A DNA stretch of 64,000 nt from Phyllobacterium bourgognense (GTDB lineage: Bacteria > Pseudomonadota > Alphaproteobacteria > Rhizobiales > Rhizobiaceae), in NCBI RefSeq assembly GCF_003337575.1, contig NZ_QPJM01000003.1, positions 186,001-250,000 of the forward strand, in the 5' to 3' direction. A model generated the notes under the pieces. It was not told the DNA's origin, searched no databases, and saw only the letters and a list, made by a program, of their open reading frames with translations. Positions 3,680-14,058 of the stretch are shown piece after piece. Within the stretch, counting starts at the first letter, position 1; every line of letters starts with the position of its first letter. Both the position numbers and the translations under genes were made by a program.

Positions 3680-4294
3680 ATGTTTACGGGAATTGTAACG
3701 GATATTGGCAGAATAGGTCAGGTTAAGCCGCTTAATGAAGGCGTGCTGCTGCGTATCGAGACCAATTACGACCCGGAAACGATCGAGATCGGTGCATCCA
3801 TTTCATGCTCCGGCGTTTGCCTCACCGTAACGACCCTTCCCGAAAGAGGCTCCAATGCGCGCTGGTTTGAGGCCGAGGCCTGGGAAGAAGCGCTGCGACT
3901 TACCACCATATCCGGCTGGAAGACAGGAACGCGCATCAATCTCGAGCGTTCGTTGAAACTCGGTGACGAGATGGGCGGCCATCTTGTCTCCGGCCATATC
4001 GACGCGATGGCGGAAATCATCAAGCGTGATGACGAGGGCGATGCCGTTCGTTTTACACTGCGCGTACCCGGGCAACTTGCACGGTTCATCGCACAGAAGG
4101 GTTCCGTCGCGCTTGACGGTACGTCGCTCACGGTCAACGGTGTCAATGGCAACGAGTTCGATGTTCTACTCATTCGTCATTCGCTGGACGTGACCACCTG
4201 GGGCGATCGCAAGGTTGGCGACTACGTCAATATCGAGATAGATCAGATGGCGCGATACGCTGCACGGCTTGCAGAATATCCGAAATCAGCCTAG
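3680..4294 (+). CDS. ribE: Riboflavin synthase, alpha subunit
   Basis: 204 residues, made of two tandem lumazine-binding barrels. The family's invariant MFTGIVTDIG start fixes the ATG at 3680, even though the frame is open back to 3599 inside ribD. Conserved SCSGVCLTV and the second-repeat DGTSLTVN are visible. The enzyme dismutates two 6,7-dimethyl-8-ribityllumazine molecules to riboflavin. It is the last gene of the nrdR-ribD-ribE run; a palindromic repeat element separates it from ribH. The gene is also called ribC in some nomenclatures. Confidence 0.96.
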   Translation: MFTGIVTDIGRIGQVKPLNEGVLLRIETNYDPETIEIGASISCSGVCLTVTTLPERGSNARWFEAEAWEEALRLTTISGWKTGTRINLERSLKLGDEMGGHLVSGHIDAMAEIIKRDDEGDAVRFTLRVPGQLARFIAQKGSVALDGTSLTVNGVNGNEFDVLLIRHSLDVTTWGDRKVGDYVNIEIDQMARYAARLAEYPKSA

Positions 4295-6000: not shown

Positions 6001-8154
6001 ATGACAATACTGTTTTTGGTCATTGCCTGCGGTCTGCTGTCTATTGTCTACGCGTTTCTAGCCACCAAATCGGTGCTCGCGGCGGACCAGGGCAATGCGC
6101 GCATGCAAGAAATCGCCGGTGCAATTCGTGAAGGCGCACAGGCATATCTCACACGACAGTACACCACGATCGCCATCGTCGGCGTCGTCGTTTTCCTTGC
6201 AGTCTGGTTTCTCCTGACGGGGACGGCTGCTATCGGCTTTCTGATCGGCGCAGTGCTTTCAGGGCTTGCCGGTTTCATTGGCATGCACGTTTCTGTCCGT
6301 GCCAATGTTCGCACCGCACAGGCCGCATCTCGCAGTCTTGCCGCGGGGCTTGAAATCGCTTTCAAATCGGGCGCCATCACCGGCATGCTGGTCGCAGGTC
6401 TCGCCTTGCTCGGCGTCTCCGTCTACTACTGGATATTGACCGGACCAATGGGTCATGGGCCCGCCGATCGAACGGTGATCGACGCACTTGTCTCACTTGG
6501 TTTTGGCGCCTCCCTCATTTCCATTTTTGCGCGTCTCGGCGGTGGTATCTTTACCAAGGGTGCTGACGTCGGCGGTGATCTCGTTGGCAAGGTCGAGGCT
6601 GGTATCCCTGAAGACGATCCCCGCAACCCTGCGACGATCGCCGATAATGTCGGCGACAACGTTGGTGATTGTGCCGGCATGGCAGCTGATCTGTTCGAGA
6701 CTTATGCGGTGACTATTGTCGCCACCATGGTTCTCGGTGCCATCTTTTTTGCCGCAACGCCCGTCCTCAGTGCGGTCATGCTCTACCCCTTGGCCATCTG
6801 CGGCGCCTGCATCGTCACCTCTATCGCCGGGACGTTTTTCGTCAAGCTTGGAGCTAATAACTCCATCATGGGTGCTCTTTACAAGGGGCTGATCGTGACG
6901 GGGCTTCTGTCGATCCTCGGCCTTGCGGCGGCAACTTCCGCAACCGTTGGCTGGGGTGAGGTCGGCACGGTCGCCGGCATGTCCATTACCGGAACCAACC
7001 TGTTCATTTGCGGTCTGATCGGGCTTGTTGTGACCGGTTTGATCGTGGTGATCACCGAATACTATACCGGTACCAACAAGCGCCCGGTGAATTCGATTGC
7101 GCAGGCCTCAGTCACAGGGCACGGCACGAATGTTATCCAGGGCCTTGCCGTCTCGCTTGAATCGACTGCGCTGCCGGCACTAGTTATCGTTGGCGGTATC
7201 ATTTCGACCTATCAGCTTGCTGGGCTTTTTGGCACGGGTATCGCCGTTACTGCCATGCTCGGTATTGCCGGTATGATCGTCGCGCTCGACGCATTCGGAC
7301 CGGTTACCGATAACGCCGGTGGCATCGCGGAAATGGCTGGGCTCGACCCTGAGGTTCGCAAATCTACCGATGCGCTCGATGCGGTTGGCAATACAACGAA
7401 AGCTGTAACCAAGGGATATGCGATTGGCTCCGCCGGTCTTGGTGCACTGGTCTTGTTCGCCGCCTATTCCAATGACCTGCAGTTCTTCATTGCGGAAGCC
7501 AACAAGGAAGGCGCGACCGCTTTCTCCTACTTCAAAGGAATCGGTACGGTCTCGTTCGAGCTGTCCAACCCCTACGTGGTTGCTGGTCTCATCTTCGGTG
7601 GCCTGATTCCTTATCTCTTCGGCGGTATTGCGATGACGGCGGTTGGCCGTGCTGCAGGCTCCGTCGTCGAGGAGGTGCGCCGCCAGTTCCGAGAAAAGCC
7701 GGGCATCATGCAGGGCACCGAACGGCCGGACTATGCGAGGGCAGTAGACATTCTCACCCGCGCTGCGATCAAGGAAATGGTTGTACCGTCACTCCTGCCT
7801 GTACTGGCACCGCTTGTCGTCTATTTCGGCGTGCTGCTGATTTCAGGCTCCAAGGCTTCTGCATTCGCGGCTCTCGGTGCTTCGCTCCTCGGCGTTATCA
7901 TCAACGGCATATTCGTCGCCATCTCGATGACGTCAGGCGGCGGCGCTTGGGACAACGCAAAGAAATCCTTCGAAGACGGCTTCGTTGACAAGGATGGAAA
8001 GCGCCATATGAAGGGATCGGAAGCGCACAAGGCGTCGGTAACGGGCGATACCGTTGGCGATCCTTACAAGGATACGGCGGGCCCCGCTGTCAATCCGGCG
8101 ATCAAGATCACAAACATCGTTGCATTGCTGCTTTTGGCCGTGCTTGCACACTGA
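6001..8154 (+). CDS. hppA: K+-independent H+-translocating membrane pyrophosphatase
   Basis: 717 residues, about 16 membrane spans. It couples pyrophosphate hydrolysis to proton pumping across the inner membrane. The catalytic signature [18 protein letters not shown] is followed by [19 protein letters not shown], and a second Asp cluster occurs near the C-terminus ([17 protein letters not shown]). The segment GNTTKA has Lys at about position 467; in this family Lys here marks K+-independent enzymes and Ala K+-dependent ones. A GGGAG lies just before the ATG. It is monocistronic with a strong terminator. A CTTGAC at 5868-5873 is a candidate -35 box. Confidence 0.96.
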
Positions 8155-12693: not shown

Positions 12694-13251
12694 ATGGACA
12701 AGAGTCCCGACGCATTTAGAACCATCAGCGAAGTTGCAGAAGATCTCGATTTGCCCCAGCACGTCCTGCGTTTCTGGGAAACACGCTTCACGCATATCAA
12801 ACCGATGAAACGTGGCGGCGGGCGCCGATATTACCGCCCGCTCGACGTGGATCTCCTGAAGGGGATCCGCCATCTGCTTTACGATCAAGGCTATACGATC
12901 AAGGGCGTGCAGCGGCTTCTCCGGGAAAACGGCACGCAGTTCATCATAGCGCTCGGCAGCGGCGACACCGCAGCCGCCGAAGCCATTAGCCAGCAAAAGC
13001 AGGCCTCGGCCCGTCAGGAAGAGGCGCTTGCCGCCGAGCAGGACCGCGTCGACGCCGACGAGGAAGCCGCCGTCATGGGAACGTCGAAATCCGCGCCCCA
13101 CGGCAGGCGTCTCTTTGGCCTGATCAAGGGTGATGACGAAGGCCCGGTCGCCGCCGATGGCAAACGGCTCTCCAAAGACAATCGTGCGCTTCTTCAGGAA
13201 ACGCTGTTTGATCTGCTCGAATGCAAGCGTCTGCTTGATCAGGTCCGCTGA
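12694..13251 (+). CDS. MerR-family transcriptional regulator
   Basis: 185 residues. The N-terminal winged-helix (about 8-75) contains the MerR hallmark FWETRF and [18 protein letters not shown]. The C-terminal half is acidic/alanine-rich with [18 protein letters not shown], probably helical, and lacks a recognisable metal or ligand site. It is the MerR gene that regularly follows ihfA in rhizobia and Brucella; its target is not known to me. It ends just before the terminator of a convergent small RNA on the minus strand. Confidence 0.92.
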
Positions 13252-13262
13252 ATTCATATAGT

Positions 13263-13351
13263 CCTAAAAAAAGCCCAGCTTCTACCGGAGCAGAAGCTGG
13301 GACTCGGGGTTGGCTGTGGGGTTGCAGCCTAGCTGGTTGGGGGACCAGTTT
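13263..13351 (-). ncRNA. Candidate stress-induced small RNA with C-rich loops
   Basis: On the minus strand an EcfG-type promoter (13358-13382) is followed by about 90 bases that fold into three consecutive hairpins. Hairpin 1 has stem CTGGT/ACCAG with loop CCCCCA (13333-13348). Hairpin 2 has stem GGCTG/CAGCC with loop CAACCCCA (13313-13329). Hairpin 3 is a GC-rich terminator stem CCCAGCTTCT/AGAAGCTGGG followed by seven T. No open frame is present. Exposed C-runs could pair with Shine-Dalgarno sequences, as in other EcfG/SigT-controlled sRNAs such as GsrN of Caulobacter. The 5' end is placed about 7 bases after the -10 and is approximate. Confidence 0.78.
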
Positions 13352-13357
13352 TGTAGA

Positions 13358-13382
13358 AACGCGGGTGTGTCGCAAAGGTTCC
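13358..13382 (-). promoter_or_regulatory. EcfG (general stress sigma factor) promoter of the sRNA
   Basis: On the minus strand GGAAC, 16 bases, CGTT: an exact match to the alphaproteobacterial EcfG/RpoE-type promoter (GGAAC-N16-CGTT). It lies about 7 bases before the three-hairpin RNA. Confidence 0.82.
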
Positions 13383-13420: not shown

Positions 13421-13735
13421 CTAGCGGGCCAGCATGCCGATGATAACGCCAAGGCCGGCGATGATCATCAGCGTCGAAACCGAATTTTGCGTTGGTGTAT
13501 TGGCAATTCTCTGAGCCCGATGACCCAGAGCACTGGCAGCGCGCGCTCCACGCTCTCTGATTTCATCGAAAGTCGAGCTTTCGTCATCATCCGACAGGTC
13601 TTCGAGGAATTCGATACCGCGGTCGGACAGGGTTTTGGTGATCGCCGCCAGATCGCGCCGCAAATCAGCGATCTCACTGCGCAGTCTTTCCTTGTCCGTC
13701 TCGCCGCCCTGCATGGCTTCGGTCATGTCGTCCAT
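13421..13735 (-). CDS. DUF883-type (ElaB/YqjD-like) membrane-anchored stress protein
   Basis: 104 residues: an N-terminal charged helix (KERLRSEIADLRRDLAAITKTLSDRG), an acidic linker (LSDDDESSTFDE) and one C-terminal transmembrane helix (TLMIIAGLGVIIGMLAR). This layout is that of DUF883 proteins, C-tail-anchored inner-membrane proteins linked in enterobacteria to ribosome binding in stationary phase. It follows the paralogous gene at 13753 by 17 bases and is likely co-transcribed from the EcfG-type promoter at 14034-14058. Specific function is not known. Confidence 0.8.
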   Translation of the reverse strand: MDDMTEAMQGGETDKERLRSEIADLRRDLAAITKTLSDRGIEFLEDLSDDDESSTFDEIRERGARAASALGHRAQRIANTPTQNSVSTLMIIAGLGVIIGMLAR

Positions 13736-13752: not shown

Positions 13753-14004
13753 TCAACGGCGCGAAAAAAGCCCGAGCAGCAATGCGGCTGCGGCAACGAT
13801 GGCGATCGTTGTAACGGGATTCTCCTTGGCGGTATCGGCGGCATAGCGTGCTTGCTTCGAGGCCACACGTTTCATCTCTTCGAATCGCTCCGAACCCAGG
13901 TCGGAAAGACTGGCCGAAAGTTTCGAAATCTCCTTGCGCAAGGCAGCAATCTGCGCTTCGACGTCGCCCTGGAAATCATCTGCATTTCTGGAAAACATTG
14001 CCAT
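13753..14004 (-). CDS. DUF883-type (ElaB/YqjD-like) membrane-anchored stress protein
   Basis: 83 residues: charged coiled helix (DVEAQIAALRKEISKLSASLSDLG), then ENPVTTIAIVAAAALLLGLFSRR, a single C-terminal membrane anchor with the typical RR end. The ATG at 14004 has AGGAG 6 bases upstream, which decides this start over longer in-frame options that run into the repeat element. The EcfG-type promoter at 14034-14058 gives a leader of about 25 bases. It shares the SLSDLGxERFEE/TLSDRGIEFLED region with its downstream neighbour, suggesting tandem duplication. Confidence 0.82.
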   Translation of the reverse strand: MAMFSRNADDFQGDVEAQIAALRKEISKLSASLSDLGSERFEEMKRVASKQARYAADTAKENPVTTIAIVAAAALLLGLFSRR

Positions 14005-14033: not shown

Positions 14034-14058
14034 AACGGGTCGCCGGCGCTAATGTTCC
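14034..14058 (-). promoter_or_regulatory. EcfG promoter of the DUF883 gene pair
   Basis: On the minus strand GGAAC, 16 bases, CGTT, an exact consensus match, 30 bases before the ATG at 14004. The repeat element at 14067-14423 abuts its upstream side. Confidence 0.82.

Follow-up and report, generated by a model that had tools for sequence, protein, structure and literature searches.

A predicted pair of EcfG-controlled small RNAs with C-rich loops in Phyllobacterium

Between a merR-family regulator gene and two small genes of the DUF883 kind, the genome of Phyllobacterium bourgognense has a short interval in which an EcfG-type promoter motif stands directly before a compact, terminator-ended structure. 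Is this interval a gene for a small RNA (sRNA) of the general stress response, and if so, with what would its product interact? We analyzed the locus within a stretch of 64,000 nucleotides (contig NZ_QPJM01000003.1, positions 186,001 to 250,000; here called the window) and compared it with other genomes. The features are listed in Table 1. The start of the second DUF883-like gene was set by eye at MAMFS.

Table 1. Features of the copy A locus, in coordinates of the window
Feature	Position	Strand	Basis
merR-family regulator gene, convergent neighbor	12694..13251	+	ORF and profile match
Predicted sRNA, copy A, ~85 nt	13266..13353	-	Start at ~13350-13354 inferred from promoter; end is the U run
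Intrinsic terminator, 12-bp stem and U7	13266..13301	-	Terminator and fold prediction
CCCC linker, predicted unpaired, third exposed C-rich stretch	13306..13309	-	Pairing probabilities
Hairpin 2, stem GGCUG/CAGCC, loop CAACCCCA	13312..13329	-	Fold prediction
Hairpin 1, stem CUGGU/ACCAG, loop CCCCCA	13333..13348	-	Fold prediction
EcfG-type promoter GGAAC-N16-CGTT, copy A	13358..13382	-	Motif match and conservation in 38 copies
Small gene 5' of the RNA, same strand, DUF883-like	13421..13735	-	Name from the preliminary description; no Pfam or NCBIfam match
Second DUF883-like gene	13753..14004	-	Weak DUF883_C match, 22.6 bits (Pfam cut-off 27)
EcfG-type promoter GGAAC-N16-CGTT of the DUF883-like genes	14034..14058	-	~30 nt before the gene

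The minus strand from 13359 to 13266 has a predicted folding energy of -39.2 kcal/mol, compared with -21.8 for shuffled sequences (z = -5.8), and none of 200 shuffles was as stable. The preliminary description had proposed three short hairpins and a strong terminator; the terminator stands, and the fold gives two short hairpins before it instead of three. The two exposed C-rich loops, CCCCCA and CAACCCCA, had been both recognized and placed correctly there, and each has a predicted unpaired probability of 1.0, as does the CCCC linker. The absence of an open frame also held up. None of the start codons ATG, GTG and TTG occurs in the predicted transcript, for which reason we rejected a small peptide gene, and an overlapping frame, a mechanically called ORF of 95 codons (13411-13124, minus strand), begins 5' of the promoter.

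A covariance model, R1, was built from the RNA alone with the promoter left out. Searches with R1 found the RNA in all 20 Phyllobacterium genomes. Copy A is at the merR site in 18 of the 20, and a diverged paralogue of the same layout, copy B, occurs elsewhere in every one. The copy B of the window's own genome (G000:C5:270829-270905; L083, ~7830-7906, plus strand) has an EcfG-type promoter, a short terminator U run (TTTTCT) and a C-rich terminator loop. Weak additional matches in G017, G009, L008 and L010 were terminator look-alikes, and with only one or two copies per genome a repeated element was rejected. Comparison of the genomes establishes a conserved predicted RNA with its promoter and a family of two genes, and conservation in 38 copies places the feature beyond chance, so that copy A is almost certainly a real sRNA gene.

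The first stem is CUGGU/ACCAG in 37 of the 38 copies and CUGGC/ACCAG in the other, counting two rows that were split differently by the script and that both contain CUGGU...ACCAG. Its loop varies in length, but three or more consecutive C residues are present in every copy. The second stem in copy A is GGCUG/CAGCC, or GGCCG/CGGCC in three genes (the script chose another helix in three copy A rows, which also contain GGCUG...CAGCC), and in copy B it is of the type UUGGCU/AGCCAA. The terminator stem also differs between the copies. Further C-runs occur in loop 2, and copy A has one in its linker and copy B one in its terminator loop. Hairpin 1 seems, from this alignment, to be constrained in sequence beyond mere shape.

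A pooled alignment of 35 distinct sequences, in which 96.1% of the pair cells were standard, had been fitted to model R2, and some of its copy A rows have hairpin 2 out of register. Two-sided changes occurred at 15 of 24 pairs. Shuffles gave 7.0 such pairs, with none of 500 reaching 15, and slid structures gave 1 to 6; the count of additional pair types was unremarkable (80 of 500 shuffles as high). When the copies were taken separately, on alignments that were not fitted to the structure, copy A (7 of 18 sequences) had all cells paired and two-sided changes at 5 of 24 pairs, a number reached by 1 of 500 shuffles, and copy B (11 of 20 sequences) had such changes at 1 of 24 pairs, reached by 170 of 500. 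The covariation is weaker on alignments not fitted to the structure, above all for copy B, and the separate results mean that most of the support for the structure comes from copy A and from the way the two copies differ.

Our preferred reading, which we consider likely as a whole, is that copy A encodes a trans-acting sRNA of ~85 nt, one of two Phyllobacterium paralogues, that is transcribed by EcfG and uses its C-rich segments to pair with G-runs in mRNAs. We infer its transcription, its control by EcfG, the base pairing, the direction of regulation and the targets along the following lines. Under stress, PhyR would release EcfG from NepR, RNA polymerase bearing EcfG would fire the GGAAC-N16-CGTT promoter, and the RNA would end at its own terminator. 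Loop 1 (CCCCCA), loop 2 (CAACCCCA) and the CCCC linker would then pair with G-runs in mRNAs, the near-invariant hairpin 1 being the likeliest main contact site. Pairing at a ribosome-binding site of the GGGG type would block translation, and pairing upstream of such a site could activate it, as GsrN does on katG. By analogy, action through base pairing of the C-rich loops with mRNAs is in itself probable.

The preliminary description had the loops complementary to Shine-Dalgarno sequences. This is right for sites with a G-run, which are a minority, and wrong for the usual core, the motif CCUCC being found in none of the 38 copies; the RNA should therefore pair poorly with the common ribosome-binding site, and the G-run class could pair. 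The C-rich-motif sRNAs of Firmicutes (Rsa type) likewise have C-runs aimed at G-rich ribosome-binding sites, and differ in sigma factor, host and structure. We searched for targets among 201 genes shared as orthologues by three genomes (G000:C3, G012:C1 and G007:C1, 400 kb each), with start codons that were assigned by script and are in some cases wrong, e.g. for g0_106 in one genome. At positions -20 to -4, AGGA, GGAG or GAGG was conserved in 78 of these genes and GGGG in 10. TGGGG and GGGGT were conserved in two genes each, other 5-mers of the same composition in one or two; GGGGG was conserved in five of the 201, a figure that has no control of the same composition. Loop 1 reached -9 kcal/mol or lower in all three genomes at 8 of 201 start regions, compared with 0.47 on permutation (0 of 30 as high), an excess that is weak since permuting loop 1 breaks its C-run. 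There was no clear excess for loop 2 (5 compared with 3.7, 8 of 30 permutations as high) or for the linker (13 compared with 6.8, 4 of 30 as high). Two genes in the sample, among other candidates, have conserved G-runs in their start regions; by their sequences we take them to be nuoJ-like and yicC-like.

Two individual targets were set aside. A katG gene (TIGR00198) was found in only one of 19 Phyllobacterium genomes searched (G009), which rules it out as a shared target; a conserved RNA must have others. The ihfA gene is upstream of merR, ~0.7 kb from the RNA. At all 18 copy A loci it begins with AUGGGGGG, a sequence with which loop 1 could base-pair. The same start occurs in 11 of 28 ihfA loci from other genera (UGGGGG occurs in 14), so that ihfA is not a specific target.

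The invariance of stem 1, in contrast with a second stem and terminator stem that vary between the copies, would also be expected if the RNA bound a protein through hairpin 1 (CUGGU, C-rich loop, ACCAG) and did not pair with mRNAs, and the lack of a clear target signal in the k-mer and pairing-energy tests is consistent with that. The C-runs, however, recur in loop 2, in the copy A linker and in the copy B terminator loop, as expected for repeated pairing sites. We know of no protein that binds such a motif, and we regard protein binding as the unlikely explanation of the two.

The case for EcfG control of the predicted sRNA comes from the promoter. The sequence GGAACCTTTGCGACACACCCGCGTT, on the minus strand from 13382 to 13358, is an exact GGAAC-N16-CGTT match with a spacer of 16, as had been proposed. 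A single match of this kind has no significance by itself, as the motif is not rare: the window has three matches to GGAAC-N16/17-CGTT where 1.03 are expected, and 6 of 100 shuffles had at least three. (Another exact GGAAC-N16-CGTT match in the window is at 3926-3950 on the plus strand.) Because the promoter is absent from R1, its presence upstream of the copies found with that model is an independent test. Every one of the 38 copies has GGAAC ahead of hairpin 1, at a distance of 34 nt in 35, 35 nt in two and 36 nt in one. The -10 box is CATT in 20 copies, CGTT in 16, and AATT and AGTT in one each, so that C(G/A)TT accounts for 36 of 38; the two odd boxes belong to L014 and L015, loci of genomes in which the DUF883-like neighbor was not found. 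Among the 35 copies with the 34-nt distance, every -10 box has the TT, and at 15 of the 16 spacer positions the commonest base reaches at most 62%. Conserved boxes at a near-fixed spacing, with a variable spacer between them, are the pattern that a working EcfG promoter leaves. The promoter and the loops, whose conservation in relatives had been named as a check on the proposal, are both kept throughout the genus (38 copies, 20 genomes).

That the sRNA depends mainly on some other sigma factor or regulator, with the GGAAC motif secondary, is compatible with the frequency of EcfG-like motifs by chance. Conservation of both boxes at near-fixed spacing in both paralogues makes it improbable. The gene has the arrangement of EcfG-regulated sRNAs, namely an EcfG-type promoter directly 5' of a non-coding RNA that ends in a terminator. 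The window's genome encodes NepR and PhyR, the latter scoring above the cut-off of the NCBIfam PhyR family. Next to NepR it also has an ECF sigma factor, which we take as EcfG by its position. On the evidence of these sequences, the RNA is very probably controlled by EcfG.

A promoter of their own, GGAAC-N16/17-CGTT, precedes the DUF883-like genes at 15 of the 18 copy A loci. The RNA lies directly 3' of the nearer of these genes on the same strand and has an intrinsic terminator at its end, so that the hairpins might be no more than the 3' untranslated region of that operon and the promoter match incidental. Against this, GGAAC stands at a near-fixed distance in 38 of 38 copies, and copy B has different neighbors, flavin reductase and baeRF/host-attachment genes, at least one of which was present at 18 of 20 loci in the flanks fetched. 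In three of the copy A loci (L013-L015) neither a DUF883-like gene nor its promoter was found in the fetched flanks, and the sRNA is kept there with its GGAAC. This persistence argues against a 3' untranslated region, which we now consider very improbable.

The reverse arrangement also occurs. In G001 and G010 the DUF883-like gene follows merR after ~30-40 bases with no RNA between them, giving an empty copy A site. In a tree of the ihfA-merR region, G001 and G003 are sisters (support 1.000), G010 joins them with a support of 0.594, and the group is nearest to the outgroup. The copy A of G003 is diverged; if it is the same gene, copy A has been lost at least once. At three loci (L006, L008 and L010) a repeated sequence, GGTTCGACAAGCTCACCATGAGGGAG or its reverse complement, adjoins copy A.

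In the general stress response of Alphaproteobacteria, the sRNA best studied for post-transcriptional control is GsrN. The GsrN of Caulobacter crescentus depends on sigma-T (EcfG) and pairs with G-rich RNAs, the katG leader among them, through its C-rich loop (PMC5869019). GsrN has a stress-sigma promoter, a length of ~100 nt, its own terminator and, close to the 5' end, an exposed loop rich in C, and the preliminary comparison with the Phyllobacterium RNA was apt: the layout of the latter is similar, and its first C-rich loop, CCCCCA, begins ~7-11 nt from the predicted start. Unlike GsrN, the Phyllobacterium RNA has two paralogues and several C-rich segments, and activation of katG through its leader could not be its shared function with katG in 1 of 19 genomes. 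Tien et al. (2018) predicted GsrN-like RNAs near the EcfG locus in other genera and noted the C-rich loop, and gsrN BLASTn matches were confined to the Caulobacteraceae (PMC5869019). Proximity to ecfG-nepR-phyR is the published criterion for GsrN homologues in the Rhizobiaceae, C. crescentus being an exception with gsrN itself distal to the locus; copies A and B are on contigs other than that of their own PhyR/NepR locus (L131). The comparison was made with the published description of GsrN, and the best reading is that the RNA would work like GsrN by design; we claim neither homology nor membership.

Other stress sRNAs of related bacteria were likewise compared from their descriptions. ReC64 of Rhizobium etli is an 88-nt, EcfG1-dependent non-coding RNA with its start mapped at an EcfG promoter, and, unlike copies A and B, it adjoins phyR (PMC3892343). 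Bsr6 of Brucella is by its description similar in being an sRNA that requires a general-stress sigma factor, RpoE1, and has the consensus box in its promoter (PMC12772402). The cuckoo RNAs alpha-r14 and NfeR1, also from related bacteria, share three stem-loops, repeated C-rich unpaired motifs and multiple copies with our RNA, and differ in having a CCUCCUCCC motif, a sigma-70 promoter and hypervariable stems (PMC7143759, PMC10746234). That our RNA is a general anti-Shine-Dalgarno sRNA of this kind is the least probable alternative, since it has an EcfG-type promoter and a near-invariant stem 1, lacks CCUCCUCCC in its loops (CCUCC in 0 of 38 copies) and matched no Rfam alpha-r family at E values up to 10.

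The statement that this is not a recognized named RNA agrees with Rfam, in which no match to it reaches the gathering score; the sole such match in the window is a tRNA elsewhere. The best Rfam match, to BcKCsr2 (15.5 bits, E 0.29, cut-off 40), was judged to be chance. Literature on alphaproteobacterial stress sRNAs, cuckoo RNAs and Phyllobacterium sRNAs, with subscription papers covered incompletely, yielded no description of it. It looks new as a sequence family, and of a kind, the EcfG-controlled C-loop sRNA, that is already known.

The expected conservation across the Hyphomicrobiales was not borne out, the recognized homologues being confined to Phyllobacterium in searches of 297, 121 and 22 genomes. 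R1 gave five matches in 297 genomes of the family (15 candidates scored per genome), all in Phyllobacterium. R2 gave two matches from the same genus in 121 genomes (37 candidates scored per genome) and a weak one in G031 (E 0.04) with agreement chiefly at the terminator. Among the genera sampled, the 22 with the best MerR scores (150 candidates scored per genome) gave two weak R2 matches (E 0.011 and 0.96), neither with GGAAC within 80 nt upstream. With so few candidates scored per genome, a homologue that has diverged may have escaped these searches. A strict pattern scan of genome contigs listed 37 stretches, 26 in Phyllobacterium and 11 in scattered other organisms, with no Brucella record among them. 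We take the 11 as chance; the one checked with R2, L126, gave no match. In 29 loci 3' of merR in other genera, including L062 where the merR end is probably misplaced, a loose motif scan found GGAAC-type motifs in four, all ending in TC and not TT.

If our reading of the RNA as an EcfG-controlled, C-loop sRNA is true, such sRNAs would recur in the EcfG regulon with targets that are not fixed, since a promoter and C-rich loops like those of GsrN are found here in genomes with hardly any katG and away from the EcfG locus. The pair of paralogues and the two genomes with a naturally empty copy A site make the question directly testable in laboratory strains associated with plants. A more speculative idea, which we think doubtful, is that Phyllobacterium has no GsrN- or ReC64-like RNA at the EcfG locus (one genome scanned) and that the unlinked, genus-specific sRNA pair is its post-transcriptional arm, which through the near-invariant hairpin 1 and the repeated C-loops would read mRNAs with GGGG or GGGGG sites, not AGGAGG, and silence that class, with the nuoJ-like and yicC-like genes among the candidates, as a block under stress. 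When L131, the only Phyllobacterium PhyR/NepR locus scanned, was searched by script over 15 kb for terminators preceded by an EcfG-like promoter, no such sRNA was found.

Among 20 other Rhizobiaceae loci, the same script found RNAs with long C-runs in three (L151, 8767 minus; L152, 3041 plus; L153, 7714 minus). These are near the NepR locus and are possibly further GsrN-like RNAs. The L153 promoter is a looser match; the other listings, in L136, L139, L143 and L153, were coding or had no C-runs. In L131 itself, EcfG-like promoters precede small-protein genes at 6358 and 10006, both on the minus strand, and one of these proteins is short and hydrophobic and begins MLYYAVIF (frame read by eye).
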